DNA of 64,000 bases from Candidatus Omnitrophota bacterium (GTDB lineage: Bacteria > Omnitrophota > Gorgyraeia > Zapsychrales > JANLHA01), in assembly GCA_022711395.1 (NCBI GenBank), contig JAKLFA010000004.1:134361-198360 (forward strand). The letters are read 5' to 3'. A model generated the notes under the pieces. It saw only the letters and a list, made by a program, of their open reading frames with translations. It did not search any database and was not told the origin of the DNA. Shown here in pieces: positions 20,858 through 42,576 of the stretch (positions are counted from its first letter, which is position 1; each line of letters begins with the position of its first letter). The position numbers and the translations under genes are program-made.

Positions 20858-22894
20858 ATGATACAAATAAACAGTCTTACAATTCAACTGAAAGGCTACG
20901 CTTCACTCAAGCACCTTATGGCCCCTCCCTCTTCATTCTCAAAACAAAGCTTCGCCCTCCTGCACAGCATGATGGTCGCTGTGATCTTCGGCTTCTTCCT
21001 GGAACCGAATATTGTCGGGGCGCATTTCCAGATGTCGTTCTGGAAGTCACCGCTGGGGATTCTGACCGCCGCGTTCTTTGTTTTCCTGCGGGTTATCTTC
21101 TTCAGCGGGATGTACGCCTCCATGCTTGAGATCGCCAGTGGCGAAAAAGACCTCCTAACGCTCAAACAGATCTGGAAAAACGCCAACCGTTACTGGTTCC
21201 TTTACAGCCTGCTGGCCCTGGTCCCTGTGGCGGTGCATTTCGTTTTTTTTGCGCTGATGCGCCATATCGATATCCCGATTTTATTCGTCGGCATCCTGTT
21301 CGACGGGATCGTGCTTTACGCGTTCGCTCTGATTGTGATCACGAAAAAATACCTTCAGCCAATGAAGATCAAAAAACAACCCGAGCGCCTGAGCACGTCA
21401 TCCGCCTGCCTGATCTGCGCAGTGGTCTTCTCGGCCCTGGCTTTAGCGTACGCTTCAAACTCGATCCCGCTCGCCCCTTTCGGGTTCGGAAGGCTGAAAT
21501 CGATCATTTACAATTCCTGTTTTTTCGGGATCAAATACCTCCACTTTTTCCTTTTTCTGTATTTCTGTGTCATCATTTTTGACCGCTATCCCGAGATCAA
21601 AAAAAGCCTCTCTTCAAAAAAAGAGATCATCCTGATCGCCCAGCCGGCCGAAGGCCTGTTCTTTTCGCTCACATCGCTTTTAATGCGCCTCTCAACACCG
21701 GTCTTCGTTCTCCTCAGGGCCATGACCCCTGAGCGCTACAAGGTCAAAGTTTTCAACCAGGTGATCTGGCATGACCGCTATTACGGGCCTGATAAACTGG
21801 TCGGCATCACCTCGTTCACCTCGAATGTTGCCGAGGCTTACCGGATCGCGAAAAAATTCAGGGAACACGGGTCCAAGGTCGTCATGGGCGGCGCTCACGC
21901 CATGTTCTTGCCGGAAGAGGCCCTGGAATTCTGCGATAGCGTGGTCATTGGGGACGCCGAACCTGTCTGGCACCAGATCCTGGAGGATTATGAGAACAAC
22001 TGCCTCAAAAGGATCTATATCGGCGAGCAAACCGCCGCCTATCATCAGGCATCCCATCAGCAGCTCATGAAATTAGAACCCGGGGTCATCGCGCAATATG
22101 TGGAGACTGGCCGGGGATGTAAATTCCATTGCGATTTCTGCACGATCCCCGCGATCTGCGGAAGACAGATCCGCCAAAAACCCCTGGCAGAGATCCTGGA
22201 GATCCTTCATAAGATCAAAGGCCACGTGCCGGCGTTCTCGTTCAGGGACAACAATCTTTACGCTAATCCCCGCTATGCCAAAGAACTTTTCCGGGCGATC
22301 AAACCTCTGAAAATGAAATGGTGCTGCTCCTGCAGCCTTGACATCGCCCGGGATGATGAAGCCCTGCGCCTCGCCAAGGAATCAGGCTGCATCGTCATGC
22401 TCATTGGCTATGAGATCTCCAGCGAATCCGCTGAAAAAGAAAAGGCGGGTAAATACAGCATGGCGGACGATTACCTGACCTTAACGCGCAAGATCAAAAA
22501 GATCGGCATCGATGTGAAGGCCCATTTTATTTTCGGATTTGACGGCGACACGTTCCACAGCCTCAAACGTCTGTGGAAATTCTGCGCGCAGCTTTTTCCG
22601 ACATTCACGATCATCACGCTCCTGACGCCCTTGCCGGGCTCAAAGTTCTTCAAGGACGTGATCCGGGAAAAACGCATGCTCAACCTCAACTGGAGCCGCT
22701 ATACCCTGACCCATCTGGTCTTTCAGCCCAAGAACATCAACCTTCACGTCTATAACGCGCTTTACCCGGCCATCTATTTGATGTTCTTGGCCACATCATC
22801 CCAGGGGCTGGCCCTGCTGGTTTTGTTCTTTTTTGTCTGGAAGAAAGTTATTGTAGACGGCGGTAAACTACTGTTGTCATCAGCGCGGCTTTGA
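20858..22894 (+). CDS. membrane-domain/B12-binding/radical SAM fusion, copy 1
   Basis: This is a 678-residue protein. The first 270 residues are a polytopic membrane domain (about six helices, e.g. FFLEPNIVGAHFQMSFW, SLLALVPVAVHFVFFALM, FFGIKYLHFFLFLYFCVIIF). A B12-binding-like domain follows (KLVGITSFTSNVAEAY, VVMGGAHAMFLPEEAL). Then comes a radical SAM core with Cys421, Cys425, Cys428 (GCKFHCDFC) and an FGFDGDT strand. This is a class-B methyltransferase/ring-former layout joined to a membrane region, so a lipid-like substrate is plausible. Starts at 20858 or 20918 (the latter matches where homology to copy 2 begins) lack a strong ribosome site. The 3' end overlaps the convergent small membrane protein by 47 nt. 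Confidence 0.85.
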   Translation: MIQINSLTIQLKGYASLKHLMAPPSSFSKQSFALLHSMMVAVIFGFFLEPNIVGAHFQMSFWKSPLGILTAAFFVFLRVIFFSGMYASMLEIASGEKDLLTLKQIWKNANRYWFLYSLLALVPVAVHFVFFALMRHIDIPILFVGILFDGIVLYAFALIVITKKYLQPMKIKKQPERLSTSSACLICAVVFSALALAYASNSIPLAPFGFGRLKSIIYNSCFFGIKYLHFFLFLYFCVIIFDRYPEIKKSLSSKKEIILIAQPAEGLFFSLTSLLMRLSTPVFVLLRAMTPERYKVKVFNQVIWHDRYYGPDKLVGITSFTSNVAEAYRIAKKFREHGSKVVMGGAHAMFLPEEALEFCDSVVIGDAEPVWHQILEDYENNCLKRIYIGEQTAAYHQASHQQLMKLEPGVIAQYVETGRGCKFHCDFCTIPAICGRQIRQKPLAEILEILHKIKGHVPAFSFRDNNLYANPRYAKELFRAIKPLKMKWCCSCSLDIARDDEALRLAKESGCIVMLIGYEISSESAEKEKAGKYSMADDYLTLTRKIKKIGIDVKAHFIFGFDGDTFHSLKRLWKFCAQLFPTFTIITLLTPLPGSKFFKDVIREKRMLNLNWSRYTLTHLVFQPKNINLHVYNALYPAIYLMFLATSSQGLALLVLFFFVWKKVIVDGGKLLLSSARL

Positions 22895-23462
22895 TCAGCT
22901 CATAGTAGCACAGCATGACAAGCGCGGCCTTCCATGAAAAAGCGACCGTCCAGATCGCCATGACAACCACAAGAAACACGAGGACGGAATATCGTTTGAC
23001 CCGGTCAAAGCAGTAGATCTTGTCCACCAAAGACGCGATCTTGTATTTCTTGGAATACTGTTCCGAAAGCTGGAACAGCGTAATGCCGGAAAGGATGTCA
23101 ACGGGGACATAATCCCGGCGGATCAGGCGTTCGCTCACCGCCACCACGGCCGCGGCCTTGACCTTTTGAGAATGGAGCCAGAAATACAAAATGAACGGCA
23201 CCGCAAGAATGGGCCAAAGGCTCTTTGAAAGGATAACGGCCGCAACACTGACCAGGGCGAAGGCAAAAATGACCCTCTGCCGCAGGAGAGCGCTCCGGAT
23301 ATCCTGATACGCCCGAGCGGTCCCCTCCTCAGCGGAAACTTGAGCTGATACCGCCGGCTGAGCAATAAGGAACTCGAACCATCGGCAGACCTCAGCATCG
23401 TATTTGATGGAGTTGACGATCGCCTCAAAACTGCTGACATGTTCTTGATGGGATACGGTCAT
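22848..23462 (-). CDS. small membrane protein convergent with radical SAM fusion, copy 1
   Basis: This is a 204-residue protein. A soluble N-terminus (SSFEAIVNSIKYDAEVCRWFEF) of about 65 residues, mostly helical, is followed by two membrane segments (ALVSVAAVILSKSLWPILAVPFILYFWL, 75-105). A charged loop (SERLIRRDYVPVDILSG) comes next, and two more segments (VLVFLVVVMAIWTVAFSW, ALVMLCYYELIKAALM) end in VYRRLQ. I do not recognise a family. A close paralogue, starting at the same codon and ending VYRRLQ too, is encoded at 25543-26157 in the same relation to the second radical SAM fusion. No clear Shine-Dalgarno. The constant pairing suggests a partner of the fusion protein. Confidence 0.75.
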   Translation of the reverse strand: MTVSHQEHVSSFEAIVNSIKYDAEVCRWFEFLIAQPAVSAQVSAEEGTARAYQDIRSALLRQRVIFAFALVSVAAVILSKSLWPILAVPFILYFWLHSQKVKAAAVVAVSERLIRRDYVPVDILSGITLFQLSEQYSKKYKIASLVDKIYCFDRVKRYSVLVFLVVVMAIWTVAFSWKAALVMLCYYELIKAALMTTVVYRRLQ

Positions 23463-23615
23463 AGCGATTTGTATCGTAACACAAACTCGCTCCTTGTAAA
23501 ATTGAAAAATAAAACACCTAAACAGGCCGGAAAATGTTTACAATATTTTACGGCGATCGACAATACAAACACGTGTTGTGGATCAAGACCAGAAAGGCCC
23601 GCGCGGCGCGCACAC

Positions 23616-25589
23616 ATGGCCCGATCATCTTCATTATCAAAACAGACCTGCTCCATCCTGCACAGCATGATGATCCCGGTGATCATCAGCTTCTTTCTGG
23701 AGCCGAATGTCATTGGCTCCTATTTCCAAATGTCGTTCTGGACATCGCCGTTCGGGGCGCTCACGGCCGCGCTCTTTATCACATTGCGCGTCCTGTTCTT
23801 CAGCGGGATCTACGCCTCCATGGTTGAGATCGCCAGCGGCGAAAAGGATTTGCTGGCTGTTGAGGATGTCTGGGACAACTCCAGAGCATACTGGTGGATC
23901 TATGGAGCGCTGGCCATGGTTCCGGTCGCTGTGCATTTTCTGATCTTCGCGATCCGCCGGCAGATGGATATCCCGATCGCGCTGGTCGGCGCCCTTTTTG
24001 ACCCGATCGTCCTTTATATTTTTGCCCGAGCCGTGATCACAAAAAAATATCTGCGCCCCATGAAGATTTCCGAACAGCCAAAACGCATAAAGGCAGAGGC
24101 CCTGTTTTTGATCTGCGCGGCAGTCCTTGCCTCCGCATTCCTGGCGGTTGCTTCAAACCTGGTCCCGGCATTGACCGAAGGCCCGGAACAGCTGCGGACG
24201 ATCATTTACAACGCCTTGTTCTTCGGCATCAAATACCTGCATTTCTTTCTTTTTCTGAGTTTGTGCCTTGTCCTGCTTGACCGTTACCCGCAGATCAAAA
24301 AACAGCTCTTATCAAAAAAAGAAGTTGTCCTGGTCACACCGCCCGCCGGAGGCCTGCTTTTTTCCATCTCATCGCTTTTGTCACGCCCCCCTACGCCGGT
24401 CTTTATCCTGCTCAAGGCCCTGACCCCGGAGCGATTCAAGGTAAAAATTTATGACCAGGTCGTCTGGCATGACCGCTATTACGGACCGGATAAATTAGTC
24501 GGGATCACCTCCTGCACATCCAATGCCGCTGAAAGTTACCGGATCGCCAAACAATTCCGGGCCCGCGGCTCAAAGGTGGTCATGGGCGGAGCGCACGCAA
24601 TGTTTTTGGTGGAAGAGGCTTTGAAATTCTGCGACAGCGTGATCATCGGAGATGCTGAGCCTGTTTGGAAACAGGTTCTGGAAGATTTTGAAAATAACCG
24701 TCTGCAAAAGATCTATATCGGTGAACAGAACGAGGATTACCACCGCTTTTCTCACCGGGAGCTCCTGAAGCTGGACCCCAGGCTCATCGCCCATTTTGTC
24801 GAGACCGGGCGGGGATGCAAATTCTACTGTGACTTCTGCGCCGTCCCCGCGATCTGCAGCCGCCGTCCACGTCACAAACCCTTGCCGGAGGTCATCGAAA
24901 TGCTCCAGCGGATCAAGGGCCATGTCCCGACCGTGTCGTTCATCGATAACAACATCTACGCCGAGCCGAACTACGCCAAAGAGCTTTTCCGGCAGATGAA
25001 ACCCCTGAACATCAAATGGACCTGCTCCTGCAGCATCGATATCGCCCGTGATGAGGAAGCCTTACGCCTGGCCAAAGAGTCCGGCTGTGTCTTGATGATC
25101 ATCGGGTATGAGATCTCAGACGAATCCGCGGAAAAAGACAAAGGCGGGAAATACAGCATGGCCGATGACTATCTGGCGTTGACCCGAAAGATCAAGGAGG
25201 CCGGCATCAGCGTCAAAGGGCAATTCATTTTCGGGTTTGACGGCGACACATTTCAAAGCCTCGCTCAGCTCTGGACGTTCTGCCTTCGGCTTTTTCCCAC
25301 GTTCACCATATTGGCCTTCTTAACGCCTTTTCCGGGATCGAAATTTTTCAAGGACATGCTCCGCAACGGCCGTATGCTCAACCTCAACTGGAGCCGCTAC
25401 ACCCTGGCGAACCTGGTCTTTAAGCCCCGCAATATCAACCCCGTGATCTATAACGCATTCTTTCCGTTCATCTTTGCCGCGTTCCTGGCATCTTCATCGC
25501 ACGGAATGATCTTTTTACTGCTTTTGATATTCGGGAAGACAATTATTGAAGACGGCGGTAGACGGCTGTTGTCATTAGCGCGGCCTTGA
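23616..25589 (+). CDS. membrane-domain/B12-binding/radical SAM fusion, copy 2
   Basis: This is a 657-residue paralogue of the 20858 protein in every domain: membrane part (FFLEPNVIGSYFQMSFW), B12-like part (KLVGITSCTSNAAESY, MGGAHAMFLVEEAL), and radical SAM core with Cys401, Cys405, Cys408 (GCKFYCDFC) and FGFDGDT. I chose the ATG at 23616 because similarity to copy 1 begins there; the frame is open back to 23439, but that stretch would overlap the start of the opposite gene and has no counterpart. No ribosome site is evident. Copy 2 differs from copy 1 by many substitutions, so the duplication is old and both copies have been kept intact. Confidence 0.85.
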   Translation: MARSSSLSKQTCSILHSMMIPVIISFFLEPNVIGSYFQMSFWTSPFGALTAALFITLRVLFFSGIYASMVEIASGEKDLLAVEDVWDNSRAYWWIYGALAMVPVAVHFLIFAIRRQMDIPIALVGALFDPIVLYIFARAVITKKYLRPMKISEQPKRIKAEALFLICAAVLASAFLAVASNLVPALTEGPEQLRTIIYNALFFGIKYLHFFLFLSLCLVLLDRYPQIKKQLLSKKEVVLVTPPAGGLLFSISSLLSRPPTPVFILLKALTPERFKVKIYDQVVWHDRYYGPDKLVGITSCTSNAAESYRIAKQFRARGSKVVMGGAHAMFLVEEALKFCDSVIIGDAEPVWKQVLEDFENNRLQKIYIGEQNEDYHRFSHRELLKLDPRLIAHFVETGRGCKFYCDFCAVPAICSRRPRHKPLPEVIEMLQRIKGHVPTVSFIDNNIYAEPNYAKELFRQMKPLNIKWTCSCSIDIARDEEALRLAKESGCVLMIIGYEISDESAEKDKGGKYSMADDYLALTRKIKEAGISVKGQFIFGFDGDTFQSLAQLWTFCLRLFPTFTILAFLTPFPGSKFFKDMLRNGRMLNLNWSRYTLANLVFKPRNINPVIYNAFFPFIFAAFLASSSHGMIFLLLLIFGKTIIEDGGRRLLSLARP

Positions 25590-26157
25590 TCAGCTCGTAA
25601 TAACACACCAGGGCTAGAACGATCTTCCAGGAAAAGGCCCCCACCCAGATCACAAAGCTCAGCACAAAAAAGATAAATATCGCGTAACGCTTAACCCGGT
25701 CAAAACAATAGATCTTGTCGACCAACGACGCGATCCCGTATTTTTGGGAATATTCCTCCGCCAGGTGATAAAGCGAGATTTTGGAAAGGATCTTAACGGG
25801 AGCATAATCCCGGCGGATCAAAATCTCACTAAGGGAAAGCACGGCCTTGTTTTTGATGTCTTGAGAACGGAACCAGAAAAACAAAATGAGCGGCACGGCC
25901 AAAAAAGGCCACCAGGTCTTAAAAACAGCGACCGCCACGGCGCTGAGCACGGCAAGCGCGAAAAGGGTTCTTTGTTTAACGGTCGAAGCCTCAATATCAC
26001 GATACGCCCGCCCCATCCGATCACCGGAAGAAATCTCCTGCCTGACCGCCGGATGGGTCACAAGAAATTCAAACCAGCGGCAGACCTCAGCGTCATGCTT
26101 GATGGAATTGATGATCGCCTCAAAACTGCTCACCTGTTCTTGAAAAAATTCGGTCAT
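25543..26157 (-). CDS. small membrane protein convergent with radical SAM fusion, copy 2
   Basis: This is a 204-residue paralogue of the protein at 22848-23462: the same length, the same SSFEAIINSIKHDAEVCRWFEF start, two pairs of membrane segments and the same VYRRLQ end. Unlike copy 1 it has an AGGAT ribosome site 5 bp before the ATG and follows the nitroreductase gene by 25 bp on the same strand, so it may be read as the last gene of the DUF1846 operon. Its 3' end overlaps the radical SAM fusion gene by exactly 47 nt, as in copy 1. No function is known to me. Confidence 0.78.
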   Translation of the reverse strand: MTEFFQEQVSSFEAIINSIKHDAEVCRWFEFLVTHPAVRQEISSGDRMGRAYRDIEASTVKQRTLFALAVLSAVAVAVFKTWWPFLAVPLILFFWFRSQDIKNKAVLSLSEILIRRDYAPVKILSKISLYHLAEEYSQKYGIASLVDKIYCFDRVKRYAIFIFFVLSFVIWVGAFSWKIVLALVCYYELIKAALMTTAVYRRLQ

Positions 26158-26182: not shown

Positions 26183-26725
26183 TCAGCGGACTTCGCTCAT
26201 ATCACCGATGCCGTGACGGCTCTTTTCCCGCAAGCCTTCTTCCGCCGAATATCCCAGGCTGATCACAAGGTCCACCTTCACATGCCACGGCAAGCCCAAA
26301 ACCTTCTTCACCGCCCGTTCGTTGAACCACCCGATCCAGCAGGTCCCCAAACCTTCCTCCGTCGCCTGCAGGATAAAATGCTCTCCCGCAATGCCGAGAT
26401 CGATCAGGTTATACTGCACCCCCCTGACCTGGCCGCCCATCCGTGCCGCGTATTTCGAACGCTCACGGATCAAAAAGACCAGGACCGGGGCCTCCCGGGC
26501 AAAGGCGTTCATCTGGAATATCCCGGAGAACGCGGCGCGCGCGGCCTTTTCTTTTAAGGCGGGATCTTGCACGGCAACAAAACGCCACGGCTGTGAATTA
26601 CAGGCCGACGGCGCAAGCCGCGCGGCTTCCAAACAGCGCTCGATCTGCCCCCGGTCAACGGGCCGATCCAAATACTTTCGGCAGCTCTGCCGCCTTGAAA
26701 CCAGCTCTAAAAAACCCATCTTCAT
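26183..26725 (-). CDS. nitroreductase-family FMN oxidoreductase
   Basis: This is a 180-residue nitroreductase-fold protein with the FMN-binding SRRQSCRKY near the N-terminus, the loop LAPSACNSQPWRF, and the central GIAGEHFILQATEEGLGTCWIGWF motif, ending in SLGYSAE. Family members reduce nitro groups, quinones or flavins with NAD(P)H; some are dehalogenases or ring-forming enzymes. Two ATGs (26725, 26719) lie close after GAAAGG; the longer frame back to 26824 would run into the PurF-like gene and is rejected. It starts 7 bp after the PurF-like stop, so it is in the same operon. The substrate is not predictable. Confidence 0.88.
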   Translation of the reverse strand: MKMGFLELVSRRQSCRKYLDRPVDRGQIERCLEAARLAPSACNSQPWRFVAVQDPALKEKAARAAFSGIFQMNAFAREAPVLVFLIRERSKYAARMGGQVRGVQYNLIDLGIAGEHFILQATEEGLGTCWIGWFNERAVKKVLGLPWHVKVDLVISLGYSAEEGLREKSRHGIGDMSEVR

Positions 26726-26732
26726 AAACCTT

Positions 26733-28148
26733 TCAGGCGCATTTGGTCTTGCCAGGACACTGGCCATTCCAGCAATACAGACAAAGCTTTTCACGGGGAA
26801 GCCCGATCGCCTCCACCATGTCATCGATCCTCTGGTAACGCAGCGTCGTCACATCCAGGTCCTTTTCGATATACTGGACCATCCGCTTATATTTTTCCGA
26901 ATCCGGGTCCAGATATTCAGAGACATCCTCAATATCCTTACCCTCAAGCGCCCTGATGGCCTTACGCGCGGCCAACTCATCGACGCTGCGCGTTGAAAGA
27001 CAGAATTTGCAAGGAAACATCAACGGCGGGCAGGCCAGCCGGACATGGATCTCTTTCGCGCCGGCATCCCAAAGCTTGTTGACCGTGAAATTCTTAAGCT
27101 GAGTCCCGCGCACGATCGAATCATCACAGACCACGATCTTGTTTCCCTTAATGATCTCTCGGATCGGGATCAGCTTCATTGTGGCGATAAGATTGCGTGT
27201 CTCCTGACTGGGCGGCGTATAACTTCGTCCATAGCCGGGGGTGTATTTGACGAGCGGCCGGCGATACGGCTTGCCGCATTCCATCGCGTAACCGATCGCA
27301 TGGGCCGTCCCGGAATCAGGAACTCCGGCGACAAGATCCACATCAATATCCTGATCATGTTTGGCCAAGGCCCTTCCGCTGCGTTCACGGGACAGCTCCA
27401 CGTTGACCCCTTCATAGACAGAAGCTGGAAAGCCTGTATAAACCCACAAGAACGAACAGATCTGACTGCTGTCCGTTCCCTTCCGCTTGATATCCATGCC
27501 TTGCTTGTTCAAAAGCACGATCTCGCCGGGCTTAAGGAATTTTACGATCTTAAATCCTAAGTTCGGCAACGCGTTGCTTTCAGCAGAGACCGCCCATTCC
27601 TCCCCTTTATTCCCGATCACCAGGGGCGTGTAACCAAACCTGTCCCGCGCCGCATAAATGCCGTCCTTATTTAAAAGAAGCAGCGAACACGAGCCTTCGA
27701 TCTGAGAGAACATCTTCTCGATCCCGTCAACGATATCATCACCCTGTGTGATCAGCTTTCCAACCAGTTCCGTGACATTGACACCGCCATGACTGACCTC
27801 ACTGAATGAAAGACCTCTATCAAAAAGCCTTTGCTTCAATTCATTTTTGTTCTCAACAAGCCCTGAGGTGACCAGGCAGAACGGGCCAAGCCTGGAGTTC
27901 AAATAGACCGGTTGTTCATCAGAATCGCTGATAACGCCTATTCCATAGGGCCCTTCCATGCGTTTGTGATCATCATAGAACTTGGACTTGAACTGTGTCT
28001 GGCTGATATTGTGGATCTGCCGGTCAAAGCTTTCTCCCAGCACCGCCATCCCGCCGTATTCTGTCCCCAAATGTGAATGATAGTCGACCCCGTAAAACAA
28101 CACGCTGGAACAATTCTTTTTCGATACTGCTCCAAAAACTCCGCTCAT
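26733..28148 (-). CDS. PurF-like amidophosphoribosyltransferase family protein with Ser at the nucleophile position
   Basis: This is a 471-residue two-domain protein: an Ntn-type glutamine amidotransferase domain, then a phosphoribosyltransferase domain with the PRPP loop IVVCDDSIVRGTQ. In PurF the residue after the initiator Met is the catalytic Cys (MCGIFG). Here the start is MSGVFG, so the nucleophile position is Ser2; the following RLGPFCLVTSG and ARDRFGYTPL regions are otherwise conserved. The Cys groups CPPLMFPCKFC and CLYCWNGQC in the C-terminus could hold an Fe-S cluster as in Bacillus PurF. It could use ammonia, be an autoprocessed Ser-Ntn enzyme, or do another reaction. It is operonic with DUF1846. 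Confidence 0.85.
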   Translation of the reverse strand: MSGVFGAVSKKNCSSVLFYGVDYHSHLGTEYGGMAVLGESFDRQIHNISQTQFKSKFYDDHKRMEGPYGIGVISDSDEQPVYLNSRLGPFCLVTSGLVENKNELKQRLFDRGLSFSEVSHGGVNVTELVGKLITQGDDIVDGIEKMFSQIEGSCSLLLLNKDGIYAARDRFGYTPLVIGNKGEEWAVSAESNALPNLGFKIVKFLKPGEIVLLNKQGMDIKRKGTDSSQICSFLWVYTGFPASVYEGVNVELSRERSGRALAKHDQDIDVDLVAGVPDSGTAHAIGYAMECGKPYRRPLVKYTPGYGRSYTPPSQETRNLIATMKLIPIREIIKGNKIVVCDDSIVRGTQLKNFTVNKLWDAGAKEIHVRLACPPLMFPCKFCLSTRSVDELAARKAIRALEGKDIEDVSEYLDPDSEKYKRMVQYIEKDLDVTTLRYQRIDDMVEAIGLPREKLCLYCWNGQCPGKTKCA

Positions 28149-28186
28149 GATGTCGTTTCCTCACTTTAGGTGAAAAGTTTGATGTG

Positions 28187-29704
28187 TCACGCGTCAAAAA
28201 AACTTCCCATGGACAAATTCGGATCGGTCGTCAGATTGATCCCCAACCGCTTTAAACCCGCCTCATCCCCGGGCGTTGGAATATGGGTCATGTGAACCTC
28301 ACAGCCCCTCAGCTCCTTAAGCATTTCCAAAGCCGCCTGAGCTGTCGCGTTGGTCGTGGCGCTGATCGTAAGAGCGACCAGCGTTTCATCAAGATCCATG
28401 CTCGCTGTTTTTGCGCCCAGGATATCCTCTTTCAAAAGCCTGACCGATTCAATGATGTTGGGAGACAGCAAGTGCAGCTTATCCGGAATGCCCGCCAGAT
28501 GCTTCACCGCGTTCAGAACAAGGCTTGAGACCGCGTGCATCAATGGAGAGTTTTTTCCTTTAATGATCGTCCCGTCGGCAAGTTCGATCGCCGCTCCGCA
28601 AAAGACCCCTTTATTCCCCTTGCCTGTATCCCGGGCCTCCTGCGCCGCCTCCCTGGAAGGGATCACGACCCGGCGATCCTCCGCGGCAACGCCCAGCTCC
28701 TTCATGATCAACTCCGCCCGCTGGACCGTGTCCTTCTCGGCCAACCCCATAAGATACTCGCACCCGTAGCGAAAATACCTGCGGATCGCCTCCTGCTGCG
28801 CGGCTTCCTGAACGGCCTGGTCATCCACGATCCCGAAACCGGCACAGTTAACGCCCATATCCGTAGGCGAACGGTACATCGCGGCGCCGCCGGTGATCTT
28901 TTCAAGGATCCTGCGCAACACCGGGAACACTTCCACGTCACGGTTATAATTGATCGCCGTCTCACCGTAGGCCTCCAGATGGAACGGATCGATCATGTTA
29001 AAATCCTTGATATCCGCCGTAGCAGATTCATAAACAACGTTGACCGGATGTTTCAAAGGGATGTTCCAGATGGGGAATGTCTCAAACTTCGCGTAACCGG
29101 ACCTGATGCCTTTGCGGTGATCATGATAAAGCTGCGAAAGACAGGTCGCCAGCTTGCCGCTGCCGGGACCGGGACCGGTTACGATGATCAGTTTTTTTTC
29201 CGTCTCAATATACTCATTGGCCCCATAACCTTCATCACTGACGATCGTATCAACATCGATCGGATAGCCTTTCGTGAACTTATGCGTGTAAACCTTGATC
29301 CCGAGCCGTTCCAGCTTGTTCTTGAAGATCCTGGCGGAAGGCTGGTTCTCAAAGCGGGTGATGACGACAGCCCGGATGTTCAGGCCCCAGTCCTTCACAT
29401 CACCGATCAGCTTTAAAGCATCAGCGTCGTAGGTGATCCCGAAATCAGCGCGGATCTTGCGCCGTTCGATATCCCCGGCGTAAATGCACAGAATGATATC
29501 TGCCTGGTCTTTCAGCTTCTGCAGAAGCTTCATTTTGACGTTCGGGTCAAACCCGGGAAGGACCCGGGCGGCGTGATAATCAAAAAGGATCTTTCCCCCA
29601 AATTCCAAATACAGTTTGTTATCAAATTTTTTCAGGCGTTCGAGGATCGCCTCCGTTTGTTCCGTCAAATATTTCTCGTTGTCAAACCCAGCACGTTTAA
29701 CCAC
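28187..29704 (-). CDS. DUF1846 (UPF0371) family protein
   Basis: This is a 505-residue protein of the DUF1846 family, recognisable from the opening GFDNEKYLTEQTEAILERL, the central KLIIVTGPGPGSGKLATCLS (P-loop-like, but used in this family without known ATPase role) and the conserved FPIWNIPLKHPVNVVYESAT and LVALTISATTNATA regions. The biochemical function is unknown; structures exist for homologues from Gram-positive bacteria. It is the first gene of a minus-strand unit with the PurF-like protein (38 bp apart), nitroreductase and probably a small membrane protein. The company of an apparent PRPP-using enzyme hints at a nucleotide or sugar-phosphate substrate. Confidence 0.92.
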   Translation of the reverse strand: MVKRAGFDNEKYLTEQTEAILERLKKFDNKLYLEFGGKILFDYHAARVLPGFDPNVKMKLLQKLKDQADIILCIYAGDIERRKIRADFGITYDADALKLIGDVKDWGLNIRAVVITRFENQPSARIFKNKLERLGIKVYTHKFTKGYPIDVDTIVSDEGYGANEYIETEKKLIIVTGPGPGSGKLATCLSQLYHDHRKGIRSGYAKFETFPIWNIPLKHPVNVVYESATADIKDFNMIDPFHLEAYGETAINYNRDVEVFPVLRRILEKITGGAAMYRSPTDMGVNCAGFGIVDDQAVQEAAQQEAIRRYFRYGCEYLMGLAEKDTVQRAELIMKELGVAAEDRRVVIPSREAAQEARDTGKGNKGVFCGAAIELADGTIIKGKNSPLMHAVSSLVLNAVKHLAGIPDKLHLLSPNIIESVRLLKEDILGAKTASMDLDETLVALTISATTNATAQAALEMLKELRGCEVHMTHIPTPGDEAGLKRLGINLTTDPNLSMGSFFDA

Positions 29705-34977: not shown

Positions 34978-36477
34978 TTACCGCGTTTCGAATAATGTTA
35001 AAAGACTGTAGATGAACACCTTAATGAACAGCGCCGCCACTTTCAAAGCGAAGCTGATCAGGTAAAACCATTCGGCCGGCTTCAAGTACCACTTCGGCGG
35101 CAGCGCCAGCCATCCGGCCGGCCCGACGCGTTCTTTCAGGATCTTAAAAATGCTTTTCGGGCGGAACGAATAGAACAGGTTGTATTTCAAAATATCGCAG
35201 CGCAAAGCCAGTTCGCTGGCCCCTAACGGGACATACGCCAACGGCGCCTCCCGAAACGGGGACTCCACCAGCGTGCCGCAGGCGTTCAGATTTTCCCAAT
35301 CCTTTCCGGGGTTCAAACGCCCTTCCTCGACGGCTGTTTGATAAAGCCTCGTGCCCGGATAAGGAGTCGCGTTGTTGAACCGGACATAATCCAGGTCCAT
35401 CTCTTTGGCCAGCCTGTAAGCGGCCGCCCTCTCTTTACGCGTCTCGGTCGGAAGCCCAAGAATGAATGTCCCCGATATCTTAAACCCGAACTTTTTGGCC
35501 AGGGCGACCCCCCGTTTGATATCTTCGACGGTCTCACCCTTATTGATCAGCTTCATCAGGCGTTCAGAAGCGGTCTCGATCCCGAAATTGATCACCCGAA
35601 AACCCGATTCCCGCATGGCCGCAAGCATCTCTTCATCCACCGCGTCTCCGCGCGCCTGGCAGTCAAACAAGGCTTTTTTATGAAGGCCGCGCCTTCGGAT
35701 CTCGCGGCAAAGGTCCATGACCCTCTGCTTGTTGGTAGAAAAGGCGTCATCCAGAAACGTCACGTAATTACGGTGATATTTGTTCACGATATCATCCAGC
35801 GTCTCGGTCACGATCTCCGCCGGAAAAAAACGGTACTTTCGTCCCGATATGCTGCGCTGAGAACAGAACGAGCAATCATACGGGCATCCGCGTGAACTGG
35901 TGATGAACCCCAGCTCGTAAGCCGATGAATGCTGTTCGAAAAGAAAATACGGGAACTTGGAAAGTTTGGTGACATCCGGCAAAGGCGCGGGCGGGTTATG
36001 AACGAACCCTCCGTTGCGGCGGAACGACAGCCCCTTGATATCTGAAAAATCCTGACCGTTTTTCAGGCGGTCATAAAGGACGGGGATCGTCTCTTCCGCC
36101 TCCCCGCGTATGGCGACATCGACATTGGGATTCTGAAGGGCTTCCTCGGGAACAACGGTCGGATGGATACCGCCGAACAGCACTTTGCTGTCAGGAAACT
36201 TCTCCTTGATGACGGATGCGATCTCCTGCCCGCGCTTGATGCTGGCCGTCATGCATGAAACCCCGAAGATGTAGGGCTTCTCCATGTCCTTGACATACTC
36301 TTCCAGCAGATCATCGCACGGACCGACGACCTCTTCGTCCAAGATCCTGACCTTTTTGCCGGCATCCATCAAAGCGCCTGCGAGCCAGCCGATGCCGATC
36401 GGAACGCTCAAGGGCACATAACGGGAGAACCCCCCGAGTTTTTTCAAACGGTTATAGCTTGGGCTGATAAACAGCAT
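34978..36477 (-). CDS. B12-binding radical SAM protein
   Basis: This is a 499-residue protein with a cobalamin-binding-type N-terminus (VPLSVPIGIGWLAGALMDAG, FGGIHPTVVPEEAL) and a radical SAM core with Cys198, Cys202, Cys205 (SRGCPYDCSFC). Later strands include GIETASERLMKLINKG and FILGLPTETRKER, and a hydrophobic C-terminal end suggests membrane attachment (ALKVAALFIKVFIYSLLTLF). This layout is that of class B radical SAM methyltransferases and related enzymes (BchE, HpnP/HpnJ type). Neighbours suggest a sugar or lipid carrier as substrate. It lies 27 bp after the SPASM gene on the same strand. Confidence 0.9.
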   Translation of the reverse strand: MLFISPSYNRLKKLGGFSRYVPLSVPIGIGWLAGALMDAGKKVRILDEEVVGPCDDLLEEYVKDMEKPYIFGVSCMTASIKRGQEIASVIKEKFPDSKVLFGGIHPTVVPEEALQNPNVDVAIRGEAEETIPVLYDRLKNGQDFSDIKGLSFRRNGGFVHNPPAPLPDVTKLSKFPYFLFEQHSSAYELGFITSSRGCPYDCSFCSQRSISGRKYRFFPAEIVTETLDDIVNKYHRNYVTFLDDAFSTNKQRVMDLCREIRRRGLHKKALFDCQARGDAVDEEMLAAMRESGFRVINFGIETASERLMKLINKGETVEDIKRGVALAKKFGFKISGTFILGLPTETRKERAAAYRLAKEMDLDYVRFNNATPYPGTRLYQTAVEEGRLNPGKDWENLNACGTLVESPFREAPLAYVPLGASELALRCDILKYNLFYSFRPKSIFKILKERVGPAGWLALPPKWYLKPAEWFYLISFALKVAALFIKVFIYSLLTLFETR

Positions 36478-36504
36478 AAGTCCCCTTTGTCTGTTTCTTG
36501 CGTT

Positions 36505-37620
36505 TTAAATGAAATTCACATGCATCGGCATATCGCCCGACGGGCTTTCCGGGACGCGTCCCTGCGTCTTAAGCTCCCAGAGATACTCGTTCACCTTATG
36601 CTGAAGGCACAGCGCCCCGCACATGGTCCGGGCGTCGAAACGGTCAGAAGCGATCTCGTTGATGACCTCCCAATAGCGCTCGCTCTGCCAGATCTCTTTG
36701 AAAGAACGTTCCGCGATGTTGCCGATGTGATATTTTTTATATTTATTGTTAAAAAGCATGCCGCACGGGGCGACCAGCCCGGAACCGGAAAGCTGGATAA
36801 TGAACGGCGGGCCGTAACAGTGCCGATAGACACGCTTGCCGCCGCTTAGGATCTTGGACCACTTGGCCTTGACCAGATAATCCCCCGAGGACAGCTCTTC
36901 AGCTTTTTTCAAAAGGCTGGTCAGGTCAAAATATTTGCTGTAATCGACCCCCAGGGAGCCTTCTTCATCGTCGCTGCAGTGTTTGATCACAAGATAATCC
37001 ACACCCAGTTCCCTGCCGAGCTCCGCCAGCGGCATGATCTGGTCAGCGAAATCCGGTAAAAGGACCATCTGAAGGCCCAGCGTGACTTGCAGATTCTTTC
37101 TTTTTTTGATCTCAACACATCGTCTGATCGTCTGACAGACCTTGTCAAAATTCTCTTCTCTGCATCCCATGATCTTGGCATACCGGCTTCGTTCTCCGGC
37201 GGACATATTGAACCGCAAATATGTCAGGGCAGGCAGCAGGTCTTCCAGCTCATCATCTTTTAAAAGATAGCCGTTGGTGCCCAGGGCCATATCCAGGCCG
37301 TTCTTCTTGCCCCTTAAAAGCGCGTCCTTCAGATAAGGAGAGCACGTACTTTCACCGTCGCTGACAAAGCTGATGGCCTTGACCCCGATCTGAGCGGCGT
37401 CATCCAGAAAACGGAAGATCACGTCTTTGGTCATCTTCTTTTCATCGTTGGCCTGCAACTGTCCGTAACAGTAAACGCAGCGGTAGGTGCAGCGGCGGGT
37501 CAGGGCGCAATCGATGGTGATCGGCGCGACGCGCTCCCCTCGTAACCAGGCATCCACGCGGTCCTTGTGCCAGGCCAGTTTGTGCCCGTCCAGGATGATC
37601 TTGGGATCCGGCTCGTTCAT
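36505..37620 (-). CDS. radical SAM/SPASM enzyme, paralogue B
   Basis: This is a 371-residue radical SAM enzyme: CX3CX2C at Cys44, Cys48, Cys51 (RCTYRCVYC), then the SAM-binding strand FVSDGESTCSP (a departure from the usual GGEP). A C-terminal SPASM/twitch region has HCYGPP, APCGML and MCGALC Cys motifs for auxiliary clusters. It ends VNEYLWEL...MHVNFI. Paralogue A (38411-39478) ends in the same VNKYLWEL...THVNFI. It is coupled with the GT2 upstream as TGATG. The enzymes probably act on a sugar or a small peptide; the operon favours a nucleotide sugar or lipid-linked sugar. Specific reaction unknown. Confidence 0.88.
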   Translation of the reverse strand: MNEPDPKIILDGHKLAWHKDRVDAWLRGERVAPITIDCALTRRCTYRCVYCYGQLQANDEKKMTKDVIFRFLDDAAQIGVKAISFVSDGESTCSPYLKDALLRGKKNGLDMALGTNGYLLKDDELEDLLPALTYLRFNMSAGERSRYAKIMGCREENFDKVCQTIRRCVEIKKRKNLQVTLGLQMVLLPDFADQIMPLAELGRELGVDYLVIKHCSDDEEGSLGVDYSKYFDLTSLLKKAEELSSGDYLVKAKWSKILSGGKRVYRHCYGPPFIIQLSGSGLVAPCGMLFNNKYKKYHIGNIAERSFKEIWQSERYWEVINEIASDRFDARTMCGALCLQHKVNEYLWELKTQGRVPESPSGDMPMHVNFI

Positions 37621-38387
37621 CAGGGTCTGGCTCCTTTTCGGATCGCGGTCTGCGTTTCGCGTGAAAAACGCCCGTCCTCTTTTTCCTGCTTGGTGAAATA
37701 CTGATCGCGCACGAGACGGACATAGCCTTTAACGACTTTCAGAAATGACGGGAATGACACCGCGCTCGACCGGCCGCTCTCTCTTAAGCCCAGCCGGTAA
37801 GGGACCTCCGCGAACAGGTATCCTTTTTTCACCGTTCGGATCAGAATGTCCGTCTGAAAAAAGAACCCGCTGTTGCGCGAAGAGATCTCCTTAAGGACCG
37901 CCTTGCGGTAAAGGATCGTCCCGTTAGTGTAGTTGAAATTCACCAAAAAGGTCGTGTTGATGATGAAGCGGTAAACGAAAGAAAGAAGGTTGCGCAGCCA
38001 CGGCCTCGCTTCACGGTTGAAGATGAACGGGATCACGATATCCACATGCTCAAGCAATTTGAAATACCGGAAGATCTCTGCCGGATCATTTTCATTATCC
38101 CCAGGCAGCATCACGACGGCTTCCGCGCAGGAGGCGTCCACCCCGTCCCAGAACGAGGCGCCGATGCCACGCGGTGTTTCATGGCAGACCATGCGGATGC
38201 GGGAATCCCTCTGCATGAACGAACGGACACGCTTCTCGGTCTCATCCGTGCTTCCGTCATTGATCACAATGACCTCTCCGTTGATCCCGAAATGGTCCAA
38301 TCCTTTCAACGTATCAGAAAGGGCGTGTTCAATATTGTCCTGCTCATTAAGGGCCGGCATGACGACCGACAGATCTCTTTGCTCCAT
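37620..38387 (-). CDS. GT2 family glycosyltransferase
   Basis: This is a 255-residue GT-A enzyme with DLSVVMPALNEQDNI, INDGSTDETEK and a MLPGDNENDP motif at the DxD position. The later part holds hydrophobic stretches (LRNLLSFVYRFIINTTFLVNF) but no separate C-terminal anchor. It resembles DPM1-type transferases that glycosylate polyprenyl phosphate. The ATG at 38387 follows AGGATGG; the frame reaches 38453, but the extra residues overlap the SPASM gene. The stop overlaps the next start as TGATG. Between two related SPASM enzymes, it probably transfers the sugar they modify. Confidence 0.88.
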   Translation of the reverse strand: MEQRDLSVVMPALNEQDNIEHALSDTLKGLDHFGINGEVIVINDGSTDETEKRVRSFMQRDSRIRMVCHETPRGIGASFWDGVDASCAEAVVMLPGDNENDPAEIFRYFKLLEHVDIVIPFIFNREARPWLRNLLSFVYRFIINTTFLVNFNYTNGTILYRKAVLKEISSRNSGFFFQTDILIRTVKKGYLFAEVPYRLGLRESGRSSAVSFPSFLKVVKGYVRLVRDQYFTKQEKEDGRFSRETQTAIRKGARP

Positions 38388-38410
38388 AAACCATCCTGTT
38401 TTTAGACTGC

Positions 38411-39478
38411 TCAAATGAAATTCACATGCGTTGGCGGATTTCTTAGCTCCCAAAGGTATTTATTCACTTCATCCATACGGCAGTTCACGCGGCAGGTCGA
38501 GACATCCAAAGCCTCCTCCACCCACTTAAGCGATTTTTTGCGTTTCTCGCCTTCCCATATCTCCTGAAATGTCTGCTCATAGATATTGCCGTAAAGGAAC
38601 TGTTCATCACCCAAATAGACACTGCAGCCCCACACATTGCCTTCAGCGTCGATATAGGACCAGAACGGCAGGCCCAAACAGCGGTCATAATGCTTCTCCG
38701 CCTCATCCCATTTTTTCATGGTGCGGATCCGGAAGATCACATTGAACTTCTCAGAATTCAGAACCTGCAGGTCTTTTTCCAGATATTCATAATCGCTGTA
38801 GCGGATCCCGCTGTACTTGTGCGTCTTGCTTTTGGGGTGCTGCGAGTAAGGCTTAACCACCAGATAATCCAGCCCCATATCTTTAGCCAGCCGCGCCAGA
38901 GCGACCGCCTCATGGGCGTTGTCCGGTAAAAGCAGAAGCTGCAACCCCAGCGTGCAGCGATAACCATGGCGGCGGCGCAGATCAACGGCATAGGCAAGGT
39001 TTTTCATCAGATGATCATAATCATCCTCACGGCACTGATGGATCTTGGCATACGTTTCTTTGGTCGCGCCGTTAACGCTGACCTTGATCCATTCGGTCAC
39101 TCCCAAAATTTGATCTGCGATCTGCGGTTTCATCAAAGTGCCGTTGGTGGTCACCGCCACATCAATGCCGCTCTGTTTCGTGTGAGAAATGATCTCGCCG
39201 ATATCTTTATGAAGGAACGGTTCTCCTTCTCCGGCATACATGATGCTTTTAACGCCCAGCCGCCCGAATTCCGTAAGACGCTCCTTCAAAAGGGCCGTCT
39301 CTAAAAATTTCGGCCGGTATTCCATAAAATCCAATCCGCAGTACGTGCAGCGATGGTTGCAGGACCCGGCGGGGCTGACCTCCATGTAGATCGGATAAAC
39401 GGTCTTTCCTTGAAGCCAGGCATGAACGCAGGGCACATGATAGATCAATTTATGGCTGTCGATCCGGTATTTATCCAT
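38411..39478 (-). CDS. radical SAM/SPASM enzyme, paralogue A
   Basis: This is a 355-residue radical SAM enzyme: Cys40, Cys44, Cys47 (SCNHRCTYC), SAM strand YAGEGEPFLH, and a SPASM-type C-terminus with CLGLPF, VWGCSV, and STCRVNC. It ends VNKYLWELRNPPTHVNFI, nearly the tail of paralogue B. Residues LGLQLLLLPDNAHEAVALARLAKDMGLDYLV also match B, so the two are homologous across their length though divergent. It overlaps the SIS isomerase gene by 8 bp. A role in forming or modifying a sugar, or in attaching it to a peptide, is inference from the operon. Confidence 0.88.
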   Translation of the reverse strand: MDKYRIDSHKLIYHVPCVHAWLQGKTVYPIYMEVSPAGSCNHRCTYCGLDFMEYRPKFLETALLKERLTEFGRLGVKSIMYAGEGEPFLHKDIGEIISHTKQSGIDVAVTTNGTLMKPQIADQILGVTEWIKVSVNGATKETYAKIHQCREDDYDHLMKNLAYAVDLRRRHGYRCTLGLQLLLLPDNAHEAVALARLAKDMGLDYLVVKPYSQHPKSKTHKYSGIRYSDYEYLEKDLQVLNSEKFNVIFRIRTMKKWDEAEKHYDRCLGLPFWSYIDAEGNVWGCSVYLGDEQFLYGNIYEQTFQEIWEGEKRKKSLKWVEEALDVSTCRVNCRMDEVNKYLWELRNPPTHVNFI

Positions 39479-40040
39479 TGCTTTTCTGCTCCTGCATCAG
39501 GCAGTCCACCAAATGATGGCAGATCGAAAGATGCACGATCTCCACATGGCCGTAGCGGAAAGACGGCACGTAAAAATTCACGTCGCCCATCGCCCGCAAA
39601 GGATTATCGGCAGCAAACCCGGAAAGGGTGATCACTCCCATCCTGTTTTTACGGGCGGCCGCCGCCCCCCGTAAAATATTTTCAGACTTTCCGGAACTGC
39701 TGATGGCGATCAAAACATCTCCGGGCCGGCCGGAAACCTCGATCGATTTCTCATAGACCGCGCCGTATCCGTAATCATTGGACATGCACGTCAGAAGCGA
39801 TTCATCCGTCAGCGTCACCGCCGCGATCCCTAAGCTGCGGATAAAATCCGTCATCACGTGGCTGGTGATCGCGGCGCTCCCGCCGTTACCGATCAGGATG
39901 ACCTGCCCGCGCCGGTCTTTGAGCGGCTTGAGCATCAAAAGCGCTCTTCCGGCGGCTTCCTCAAAATCCAAGGCCCCTGATCGTTGGTCGCTGGCCGTGA
40001 TCTGTTCATACAACTCTGTCAAATTCTGGAATGGTTTCAT
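39471..40040 (-). CDS. GmhA-like SIS-domain phosphosugar isomerase
   Basis: This is a 189-residue SIS-domain protein with the phosphosugar-binding GNGGSAAITSH (51-61), SSSGKSENI and a C-terminal YGHVEIVHLSICHHLVD carrying His and Glu residues comparable to the zinc/active site of sedoheptulose-7-phosphate isomerase (GmhA). It would turn sedoheptulose 7-phosphate into a heptose 7-phosphate, the first step of the ADP- or GDP-heptose pathways. The next enzyme (HldE-like) overlaps by 4 bp, which supports a heptose or related sugar. Other SIS substrates remain possible. Confidence 0.85.
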   Translation of the reverse strand: MKPFQNLTELYEQITASDQRSGALDFEEAAGRALLMLKPLKDRRGQVILIGNGGSAAITSHVMTDFIRSLGIAAVTLTDESLLTCMSNDYGYGAVYEKSIEVSGRPGDVLIAISSSGKSENILRGAAAARKNRMGVITLSGFAADNPLRAMGDVNFYVPSFRYGHVEIVHLSICHHLVDCLMQEQKSNG

Positions 40041-41572
40041 TTGAGTAGTGTCCCTATGTATTTAAGTAATGGCCCCGGCTCAACCGAGGAACGGTTCCCG
40101 ACGATCAAAACCTTTAATGCTCCAACCGCATTTCCAATGACCCCCACGATCTCCATCGGCGTTTTTTGAAAAACGCACGGTGAAGTGATCGAAAAGAACG
40201 CGTCACCCGCGCCGATACGGTCTACGACCTCTTTCGAAAAGACCGGGACCTGAAAAAAACCTTCCTTTTTGGAATACGCCAGGGACCCGCGATGCCCACG
40301 GGTAATGACCGCCCTCTGGCACTTCATTCGCTGTGCGATCTGCTTGACGAGCTGTTCAATGTTGGCGGTCTGGTCATGACAGGCCAGGCGCAACTCCGGC
40401 TCATCAATACAGATATAATCCGCCCGGGGGAATTTCGAGACCAGGTTGAACCCGATATTGGAACTGTTGGTCTGGACGTTCAAGGCCAGATACGGGGCGG
40501 TTTCACAGATCTTATCGACGATCTTCGGCGTTAAGAACCCGTGGCCGAAATCCGTGACCAGGACCATGTCAAAATTCTTGGCATTGCGTTCCAAATATTC
40601 GCAGACCTTATTCTCGACCGACACCGGCAGCTGCGCGAGATTGTCCAGATAACAGATCTCAAAAAGCTTGGTCAAAAAACTTTCGTCCACAAAACGGCGT
40701 TTAATGACCGTCGGGGCGTCCTTGCGGGAATAAATCTGGGTCTTGACGTTCGGCTTTAACCTTTCGGAAATGAACCCCTTGAAATCCGGCCCCGTCCCCA
40801 GGCAGCTTAAGACCGTGACCTGATCGCAAAAACCGGCCACATGGTTCGCGGCCGCCAGAACACCGCCGGCGAACTGTTCATCGCGCACAAAACGCATCGC
40901 AATGATGTTGTCCTTGGCGGTCTTCCCCATGCCGAAACAATAATGATACTCATCGACGATGATATCGCCAATCACCAGGACCTTCACGTTTTTGATCTTC
41001 TGGACATGACCGGTGATCGTTTCGGCTGAATAGCGCTTTTTCAAATCCTGCAAAAAGCTCCTCGCTTCCTGCGAATACGGCGCGAGGACCTTATTGATCA
41101 ACGCGGTCGAGCTGAACGTCGCCTCATCCGTAAAAACAAGCTTTCCTCCAACAGCCTTGATCGCCGTCTCCTCATCATAGATCTTTCCTGTCACATCCTC
41201 TTCCCTGGCCGCGTATTCCTTGCCCTTCACATAAAGGTCCGGCTTCAACTGCTTGATCGTTTCCACGGCCGTCGGCCATTCGTTGACGGCAACATAATCC
41301 ACGCAGGCAAGCGCCGCGATGCTTTCAGCCCTTAACCCGTGCGTGAAGATCGGCCGCCCGGGCCCGCGGTTGACATGTTCATCCTTGGTGACCGTCACGA
41401 CCAGGACATCCGCCAGGCGCTTGGCCGCCTCAAAATGCTTTAAATGTCCGGGATGAAGAAGGTCGAACACGCCATGACAATGCGCGACCCGTTTGCCTTT
41501 CTTCTTCAGGGATTCGACCGTTCTGGCAAGATCGGCGACCGCTTTGATTTTATCCGCAGGTTTTTGTGTCAT
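40037..41572 (-). CDS. HldE-like bifunctional enzyme with swapped domains (nucleotidyltransferase-kinase)
   Basis: This is a 511-residue protein. The N-terminal half is a cytidylyltransferase-fold domain (GVFDLLHPGHLKHF with the HxGH motif, residues about 37-50, and KPDLYVKGKEY). The C-terminal half is a PfkB sugar kinase (VLVIGDIIVDEY near 195, VLVTDFGHGF, and the catalytic GAGDAFF near 467). E. coli HldE has the kinase first. The chemistry expected is phosphorylation and nucleotidyl transfer on a heptose phosphate, giving an activated NDP-sugar. It sits between the SDR epimerase and SIS genes with 4-bp overlaps on both sides. Confidence 0.9.
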   Translation of the reverse strand: MTQKPADKIKAVADLARTVESLKKKGKRVAHCHGVFDLLHPGHLKHFEAAKRLADVLVVTVTKDEHVNRGPGRPIFTHGLRAESIAALACVDYVAVNEWPTAVETIKQLKPDLYVKGKEYAAREEDVTGKIYDEETAIKAVGGKLVFTDEATFSSTALINKVLAPYSQEARSFLQDLKKRYSAETITGHVQKIKNVKVLVIGDIIVDEYHYCFGMGKTAKDNIIAMRFVRDEQFAGGVLAAANHVAGFCDQVTVLSCLGTGPDFKGFISERLKPNVKTQIYSRKDAPTVIKRRFVDESFLTKLFEICYLDNLAQLPVSVENKVCEYLERNAKNFDMVLVTDFGHGFLTPKIVDKICETAPYLALNVQTNSSNIGFNLVSKFPRADYICIDEPELRLACHDQTANIEQLVKQIAQRMKCQRAVITRGHRGSLAYSKKEGFFQVPVFSKEVVDRIGAGDAFFSITSPCVFQKTPMEIVGVIGNAVGALKVLIVGNRSSVEPGPLLKYIGTLLK

Positions 41573-42576
41573 GAGCAGCCTTTCTCCTTTAAGAATTTAA
41601 ACCAGTCCCGGGTGGCTTCCGCTATATTTTCAGGCGTCCAGACCGGAGCGTTTCTCCAATAATCAATATGCTCGACGATCTCTTTGACCCCGTCCTCAAA
41701 CGCGACTTCCGGCTCCCAATCCAGAGTTTTTCTGATCTTCGTGATATCCGCCCAGGTGCAGTCCGGTTCCCCCGGCCTTTTGGGGATAAAGATTTTTTCT
41801 CCGCCCAAAAGCTCAATGAGCCGATTAACGCTCTGCGGCCTGCCGGTCCCCACATTAAAGATCTCGCCATCAGCATCCGAAAACCCCGCTTTTACGAACG
41901 CCCGGGCCACATCCGTGACAAAAATAAAATCGCGCCTCTGCTGACCGTCGCCTACGACCGTAAAAGGCCTGCCCGCCAGTTTCTGCGCCAAAAAGACGCC
42001 GAACACCGCCCCGTATGTGCCGGAAGTGCGGGAACGCGGCCCGTAGACATTAAAGAGCCGCAACGATACCGCCTTCATCCCGTAGACCTTGCGCCAGTGG
42101 ACAACAAGCTGTTCTCCCAGATATTTCGTCAACGCGTAAGGATACTGTGGATCAATAGCGGATGTTTCTTTAGTGGGCAGCTCCGTCGCGATCCCGTAGC
42201 AGGAGGACGAAGCGCTGTAAACCACCTTCCCCACCTTTGCCGCCCGGCAAGCCTCAAGCACCGACAAAGTGCCTGTCACGTTCGAATGAAAATACGCCTG
42301 AGGATGAACGATCGATGGAACAATGTCCGCCAGCGCTGCAAGATGAAAGACGGTATCAACCCCTTCAAAATGTTTCTGGACCCGATCCAGCGCCGCAATA
42401 TCCGCTTCAACAACCTCAAGGCGTGGATCCCCCTGCAGATGGGAGAGGTTCTCTCTGCGGCCGGTGGAAAAATTATCGATCACCCTCACCCTGCATCCGC
42501 AAGCCAGCAGGGCGTCCACCAAATGACTGCCGATAAAACCCGCCCCTCCTGTGACCAACACGCATCGTTCGCTCAT
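41569..42576 (-). CDS. NAD-dependent extended-SDR sugar-nucleotide epimerase/dehydratase
   Basis: This is a 335-residue SDR with the Rossmann motif VTGGAGFIGSHL at the start, VIDNFSTGRRENLSHL, the Ser of YSASSSCYG, the catalytic YPYALTKYLG (Tyr-X3-Lys) and VYGPRSRTSG. It is nearer to UDP-glucose 4-epimerase/WbpP types than to HldD. In this operon it would act on a nucleotide sugar made by the HldE-like enzyme. The stop overlaps the HldE-like start by 4 bp. Epimerase versus dehydratase cannot be decided. Confidence 0.92.
   Translation of the reverse strand: MSERCVLVTGGAGFIGSHLVDALLACGCRVRVIDNFSTGRRENLSHLQGDPRLEVVEADIAALDRVQKHFEGVDTVFHLAALADIVPSIVHPQAYFHSNVTGTLSVLEACRAAKVGKVVYSASSSCYGIATELPTKETSAIDPQYPYALTKYLGEQLVVHWRKVYGMKAVSLRLFNVYGPRSRTSGTYGAVFGVFLAQKLAGRPFTVVGDGQQRRDFIFVTDVARAFVKAGFSDADGEIFNVGTGRPQSVNRLIELLGGEKIFIPKRPGEPDCTWADITKIRKTLDWEPEVAFEDGVKEIVEHIDYWRNAPVWTPENIAEATRDWFKFLKEKGCS

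Follow-up and report, generated by a model that had tools for sequence, protein, structure and literature searches.

A tandemly duplicated two-gene module in Omnitrophota pairs a B12-type radical SAM protein, fused to an N-terminal membrane domain, with a small membrane protein

Two diverged copies of a two-gene module lie side by side in the genome of a Candidatus Omnitrophota bacterium, each encoding a radical SAM protein of the B12-type class that carries a polytopic membrane domain at its N-terminus and, on the opposite strand, a small membrane protein, here named S. While the enzyme class is known, its integral-membrane form, the apparently unclassified fold of the membrane domain and the co-inherited small partner are new with respect to the protein-family, structure and literature collections that we searched. 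The locus covers positions 20858-26157 of the 64,000-nucleotide stretch of contig JAKLFA010000004.1 that was analysed as a whole (hereafter, the window). Its four ORFs, 20858-22894 (+), 22848-23462 (-), 23439-25589 (+) and 25543-26157 (-), are all open and complete, and their plus-minus-plus-minus order amounts to two adjacent tail-to-tail gene pairs with the following features:

20918..22894, plus strand: radical SAM subunit, copy A (PF04055 and a weak PF02310 match; ORF open from 20858, likely start at 20918)
20918..21637, plus strand: N-terminal six-TM domain, copy A (six hydrophobic peaks, positive-inside loops; AlphaFold)
21638..22087, plus strand: B12-binding-type Rossmann domain, copy A (PF02310; approximate boundaries)
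22103..22579, plus strand: radical SAM core, copy A (invariant CX3CX2C at 22118-22141)
22733..22861, plus strand: C-terminal hydrophobic helical hairpin, copy A
22848..23462, minus strand: small partner protein S, copy A (204 aa, two hydrophobic hairpins)
22848..22894: tail-to-tail overlap, copy A (47 bp)
23463..23615: divergent intergenic stretch between S copy A and radical SAM copy B, as deduced from a start at 23616
23616..25589, plus strand: radical SAM subunit, copy B (ORF open from 23439, likely start at 23616)
23616..24335, plus strand: N-terminal six-TM domain, copy B
25543..26157, minus strand: small partner protein S, copy B (204 aa)
25543..25589: tail-to-tail overlap, copy B (47 bp)

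DNA homology between the copies begins exactly at 20918 and 23616, and none was detected between the 5' extensions of the ORFs upstream of these positions. The radical SAM genes therefore probably start there, with codons that open MAPPSS and MARSSS, and not at the first ATG. From these points homology runs unbroken (20918-23462 against 23616-26157, 71.5% identity over 2562 bp) and ends at the start codons of the S genes. At the protein level, the radical SAM paralogs are 67% identical over 657 residues and the S paralogs 62% over 204, in line with the first-pass annotation, which had described two intact convergent modules in tandem and held that both are selected. Third codon positions are 54-55% identical between A and B and second positions 82-86%, with dN/dS ∼0.19 for the radical SAM genes and ∼0.25 for S, so that all four genes are held under purifying selection; as dS is near 1 or above, the duplication is old.

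Each radical SAM subunit comprises, in this order, the six-TM domain, a B12-type Rossmann domain, the radical SAM core and the hydrophobic C-terminal hairpin. The membrane domain is indeed polytopic, as had been noticed at first reading, but measures about 240 residues instead of the ∼270 then estimated; its six TM helices follow a positive-inside pattern that places both ends in the cytosol, and AlphaFold models it with a pLDDT of 93.6 and a pTM of 0.90. A Pfam search with 45 members gave no convincing family. DUF624 (PF04854) was considered and rejected, as it stayed below its cut-off, matching one of the 45 members (E=0.0044) and none of 54 relatives, carriers included. Nor did the fold match any entry in the PDB or viral libraries (best E 0.14 and 0.26; TM-scores up to ∼0.36-0.37). 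Across these Pfam and PDB fold searches the domain thus belongs to no known family, and in particular to no well-known family with soluble substrates, an outcome that would have spoken against the original reading.

The catalytic half is easier to place. PF04055 scores above the Pfam cut-off, which makes it a member of the radical SAM superfamily, and the cysteines of its CX3CX2C motif (C401, C405 and C408) are invariant in a 43-row alignment. PF02310 matches 25 of 25 members at E≤1 (best 2e-11; the window copies fall just below the cut-off) and, together with fold matches to TsrM, MgmA (9ccb) and CysS, identifies the Rossmann domain as B12-binding-type. The top fold match is AprD4, with a TM-score of up to 0.65 over its chain; all four chains share 14-17% identity with the catalytic half and lack the length to cover the membrane domain. 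Among NCBIfam models, the HpnJ, BchE, TIGR04013 and TIGR04072 group has the same order of Rossmann domain and radical SAM core and is among the best matches, but at ∼50-88 bits against cut-offs of 251-578 and with the six-TM domain and S uncovered. We accordingly rejected an identity with HpnJ (TIGR03471; 88 bits against 577.6) or with the TIGR04072 lipid B12-radical SAM family (65 and 50 bits against 360). To our knowledge, radical SAM enzymes of the B12-type class are soluble or peripheral proteins, and our literature search, from which subscription papers mostly fell out, found none that combines a polytopic membrane domain with a co-inherited membrane partner. Of the remaining radical SAM frames in the genome, 11 reach the family profile, each with no or one hydrophobic segment, so that the fusion, rightly called unusual for its class by the first-pass annotation, is exceptional in this genome too.

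In the partner, S, two long hydrophobic stretches most plausibly form a pair of hairpins. Two conserved stretches are assigned to the cytosolic side, D-x(4)-RWF close to the N-terminus and TLYQIxExYSxKYxIPSLVDxI in the segment that separates the hairpins. Profile searches related it to no known family and no solved homolog; a UbiA match of one member at 2.6e-4 was taken as TM-driven chance. As S folds poorly in the structure model, no interface was predicted for it.

Models of the membrane domain and of S, built separately, match exactly the same 13 of 285 Omnitrophota genomes, a co-occurrence for which we claim no p-value, since both models contain rows from some of the 13 carriers and genomes are not independent. 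In complete frames the membrane domain always comes with the radical SAM half. Short pieces that depart from this lie at contig ends or in one broken copy (G279:C43:14949-17659), where a stop-broken membrane domain lies beside a stop-free S, through decay or sequencing error. We collected 45 full-length copies from the window and named contigs. S is convergent and adjacent in 32 of them, with a gap of -53 to +111 nt, fused in a single S-N-radical SAM frame in two (L085/L027), upstream on the same strand in one (L072) and divergent within an array in another. Nine copies have no adjacent S: four sit in arrays with one common S, three (L047, L062 and L069) have contig ends nearby, with an S fragment at the L069 edge, and two (L086 and L063) come from genomes that apparently carry S elsewhere (G033 and, judging by contig layout, G254). 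In the truncated L077, S lies downstream on the same strand. The pairing, which the first-pass annotation had singled out for checking, is therefore near-obligate, and the fusion does not occur mostly without the small protein. Genes that work together are commonly found in one operon; here, it is the tail-to-tail, often overlapping order that is conserved. The two single-frame fusions (847 and 865 aa) are located ∼3 kb apart in G033:C17, downstream of a UbiA prenyltransferase.

Fusion in one frame and the mostly convergent pairing show that S and the radical SAM subunit form one functional unit. Within it, S may contact the membrane domain, as is weakly suggested by its pairwise distances, which correlate better with those of the membrane domain (partial r 0.59) than with those of the catalytic half (0.36).

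All carriers fall into a single supported clade (SH-aLRT 96), including three rows without the N domain whose contigs begin inside the gene. Apart from L082 (Elusimicrobia), all contigs of the clade are labelled Omnitrophota, and the family is nearly confined to that phylum. The nearest relatives of the catalytic half, an Omnitrophota/Woesearchaeota clade (L088-L099, L113, L091), share the hydrophobic C-terminal region but have a soluble N-terminus where the carriers have the membrane domain, and their loci showed no S gene. The broader outgroup has no hydrophobic C-terminus, and the lineage thus acquired its membrane attachment in steps. The two paralogs of the window pair are mutual nearest relatives, as are those of L064, of L080 and of the L085 fusions; L051 carries a run of three copies. 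Tandem duplication has thus occurred independently several times. The outgroup (L101, L104-L110, L112, L114, L116-L118, L121) likewise occurs in tandem, as runs of two to five diverged paralogs of the B12-type radical SAM class, in Planctomycetes, Clostridia, Gastranaerophilales and others.

As to function, we see roughly an even chance that each module encodes a two-subunit, membrane-embedded B12-fold radical SAM enzyme for C-H chemistry on lipids, in the simplest case methyl transfer. The catalytic subunit would cross the membrane six times, hold its Rossmann and radical SAM domains at the cytosolic face and re-enter the membrane through its C-terminal helical hairpin. S would be its dedicated partner, anchored by two hydrophobic hairpins, exposing its conserved motifs to the cytosol and making contact mainly with the membrane domain. 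Together, the two proteins would bring a lipid within the membrane up to the [4Fe-4S]/SAM site, where C-H chemistry would take place, most simply the transfer of a methyl group from methylcobalamin to an unactivated carbon, and the diverged copies A and B may serve different positions or substrates.

Four points count against this explanation: no conserved neighbourhood names a pathway, a B12-type fold may lack both cobalamin and methyl transfer, S is poorly folded in the model, and the membrane domain may serve as an anchor. Regarding cobalamin, a cobalamin riboswitch occurs in all 13 carriers and a B12-binding_2 (MetH-type) protein in 10, so that B12 handling by the carriers permits, but does not prove, the use of cobalamin by the enzyme. 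No riboswitch was seen near the module. Regarding the neighbourhood, what recurs around the module is the module itself, mixed response regulators and a few common neighbours. A PurF-like gene adjoins it in the window (26183-29704), L060, L068 and L100, and a DUF1846 gene is also found in the window, L060 and L068, which suggests that the module occupies an old chromosomal position. Elsewhere in the window (34978-42576, minus strand) lies a sugar/heptose cluster of glycosyltransferase-like, GmhA-, HldE- and GalE-like genes that holds three radical SAM genes, one B12-type with a C-terminal TM segment and two SPASM-like, nearest to a tungsten-cofactor maturase model.

That the module probably acts on a membrane lipid is best argued from the stepwise gain of membrane attachment by its lineage. 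The substrate may be a phospholipid or fatty-acyl lipid, or one of undecaprenyl type. A narrower version, which we put forward tentatively, has acyl chains methylated (or cross-linked) at C-H positions inside the bilayer by an enzyme with the unclassified membrane fold, an obligate S and paralogs tuned to different positions.

An enzyme that works on a protein or a soluble substrate can likewise be held at the membrane by such a domain, and the B12-type radical SAM class does include peptide-, tRNA- and protein-modifying enzymes. We nevertheless judge it rather unlikely that the domain is mainly an anchor and the substrate a protein, peptide or soluble metabolite: six TM segments, a hairpin at the C-terminus and a multi-TM partner inherited along with them exceed the needs of an anchor, and neither a precursor-peptide ORF nor a recurrent partner besides S was seen among ORFs of at least 80 aa.

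Action on an isoprenoid quinone or other polyprenyl lipid is a still less likely alternative. Its appeal comes from single loci, since the fused copies of G033 lie beside the UbiA prenyltransferase (G033:C17:1249-1995) and a gene that, judged from its reading alone, resembles UbiE/MenG, and in G002 a squalene/phytoene synthase lies ∼5 kb from a tandem pair, but these neighbours do not recur. SQS_PSY is found in only three of the 13 carriers, and because the other 10, including this genome, are without it, a shared squalene- or carotenoid-type (phytoene-derived) substrate is disfavoured; likewise, a universal quinone link is weakened by carrier G018, in whose 96% complete genome UbiA was not matched. 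From the original proposal of a lipid, quinone or polyprenyl substrate, a lipid remains the likeliest part, and among polyprenyl lipids undecaprenyl phosphate may be the substrate.

Equally improbable, in our estimate, is a lipid enzyme that does not methylate, but forms C-C bonds or closes rings as in Tes, Mss and Grs. A B12-type fold need not bind cobalamin or transfer methyl groups, as AprD4, the top fold match, and Tes illustrate. The tetraether synthase Tes and the membrane-spanning lipid synthase Mss, radical SAM enzymes that act on lipid chains, offer a works-like analogy to the module, but Tes is found neither among the profile matches to solved structures (E≤1) nor among the listed fold matches, which, as far as these searches reach, speaks against a homology to Tes beyond the common radical SAM core. 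We know of no six-TM domain or S partner in Tes. In favour of such chemistry in the phylum, 15 of 267 Omnitrophota MAGs are reported to contain Mss homologs (PMC11868695).

Under the preferred reading, a membrane-embedded enzyme for lipid C-H chemistry, the module would, if lipids are indeed modified, tie the modification of lipids at mid-chain positions in uncultured anaerobes to a definite pair of genes. The natural S-N-radical SAM fusion would be suited to expression and structure determination. More generally, some uncultured Omnitrophota appear, from their genomes, to have built a normally soluble radical enzyme into the membrane and to inherit it together with a small membrane partner.
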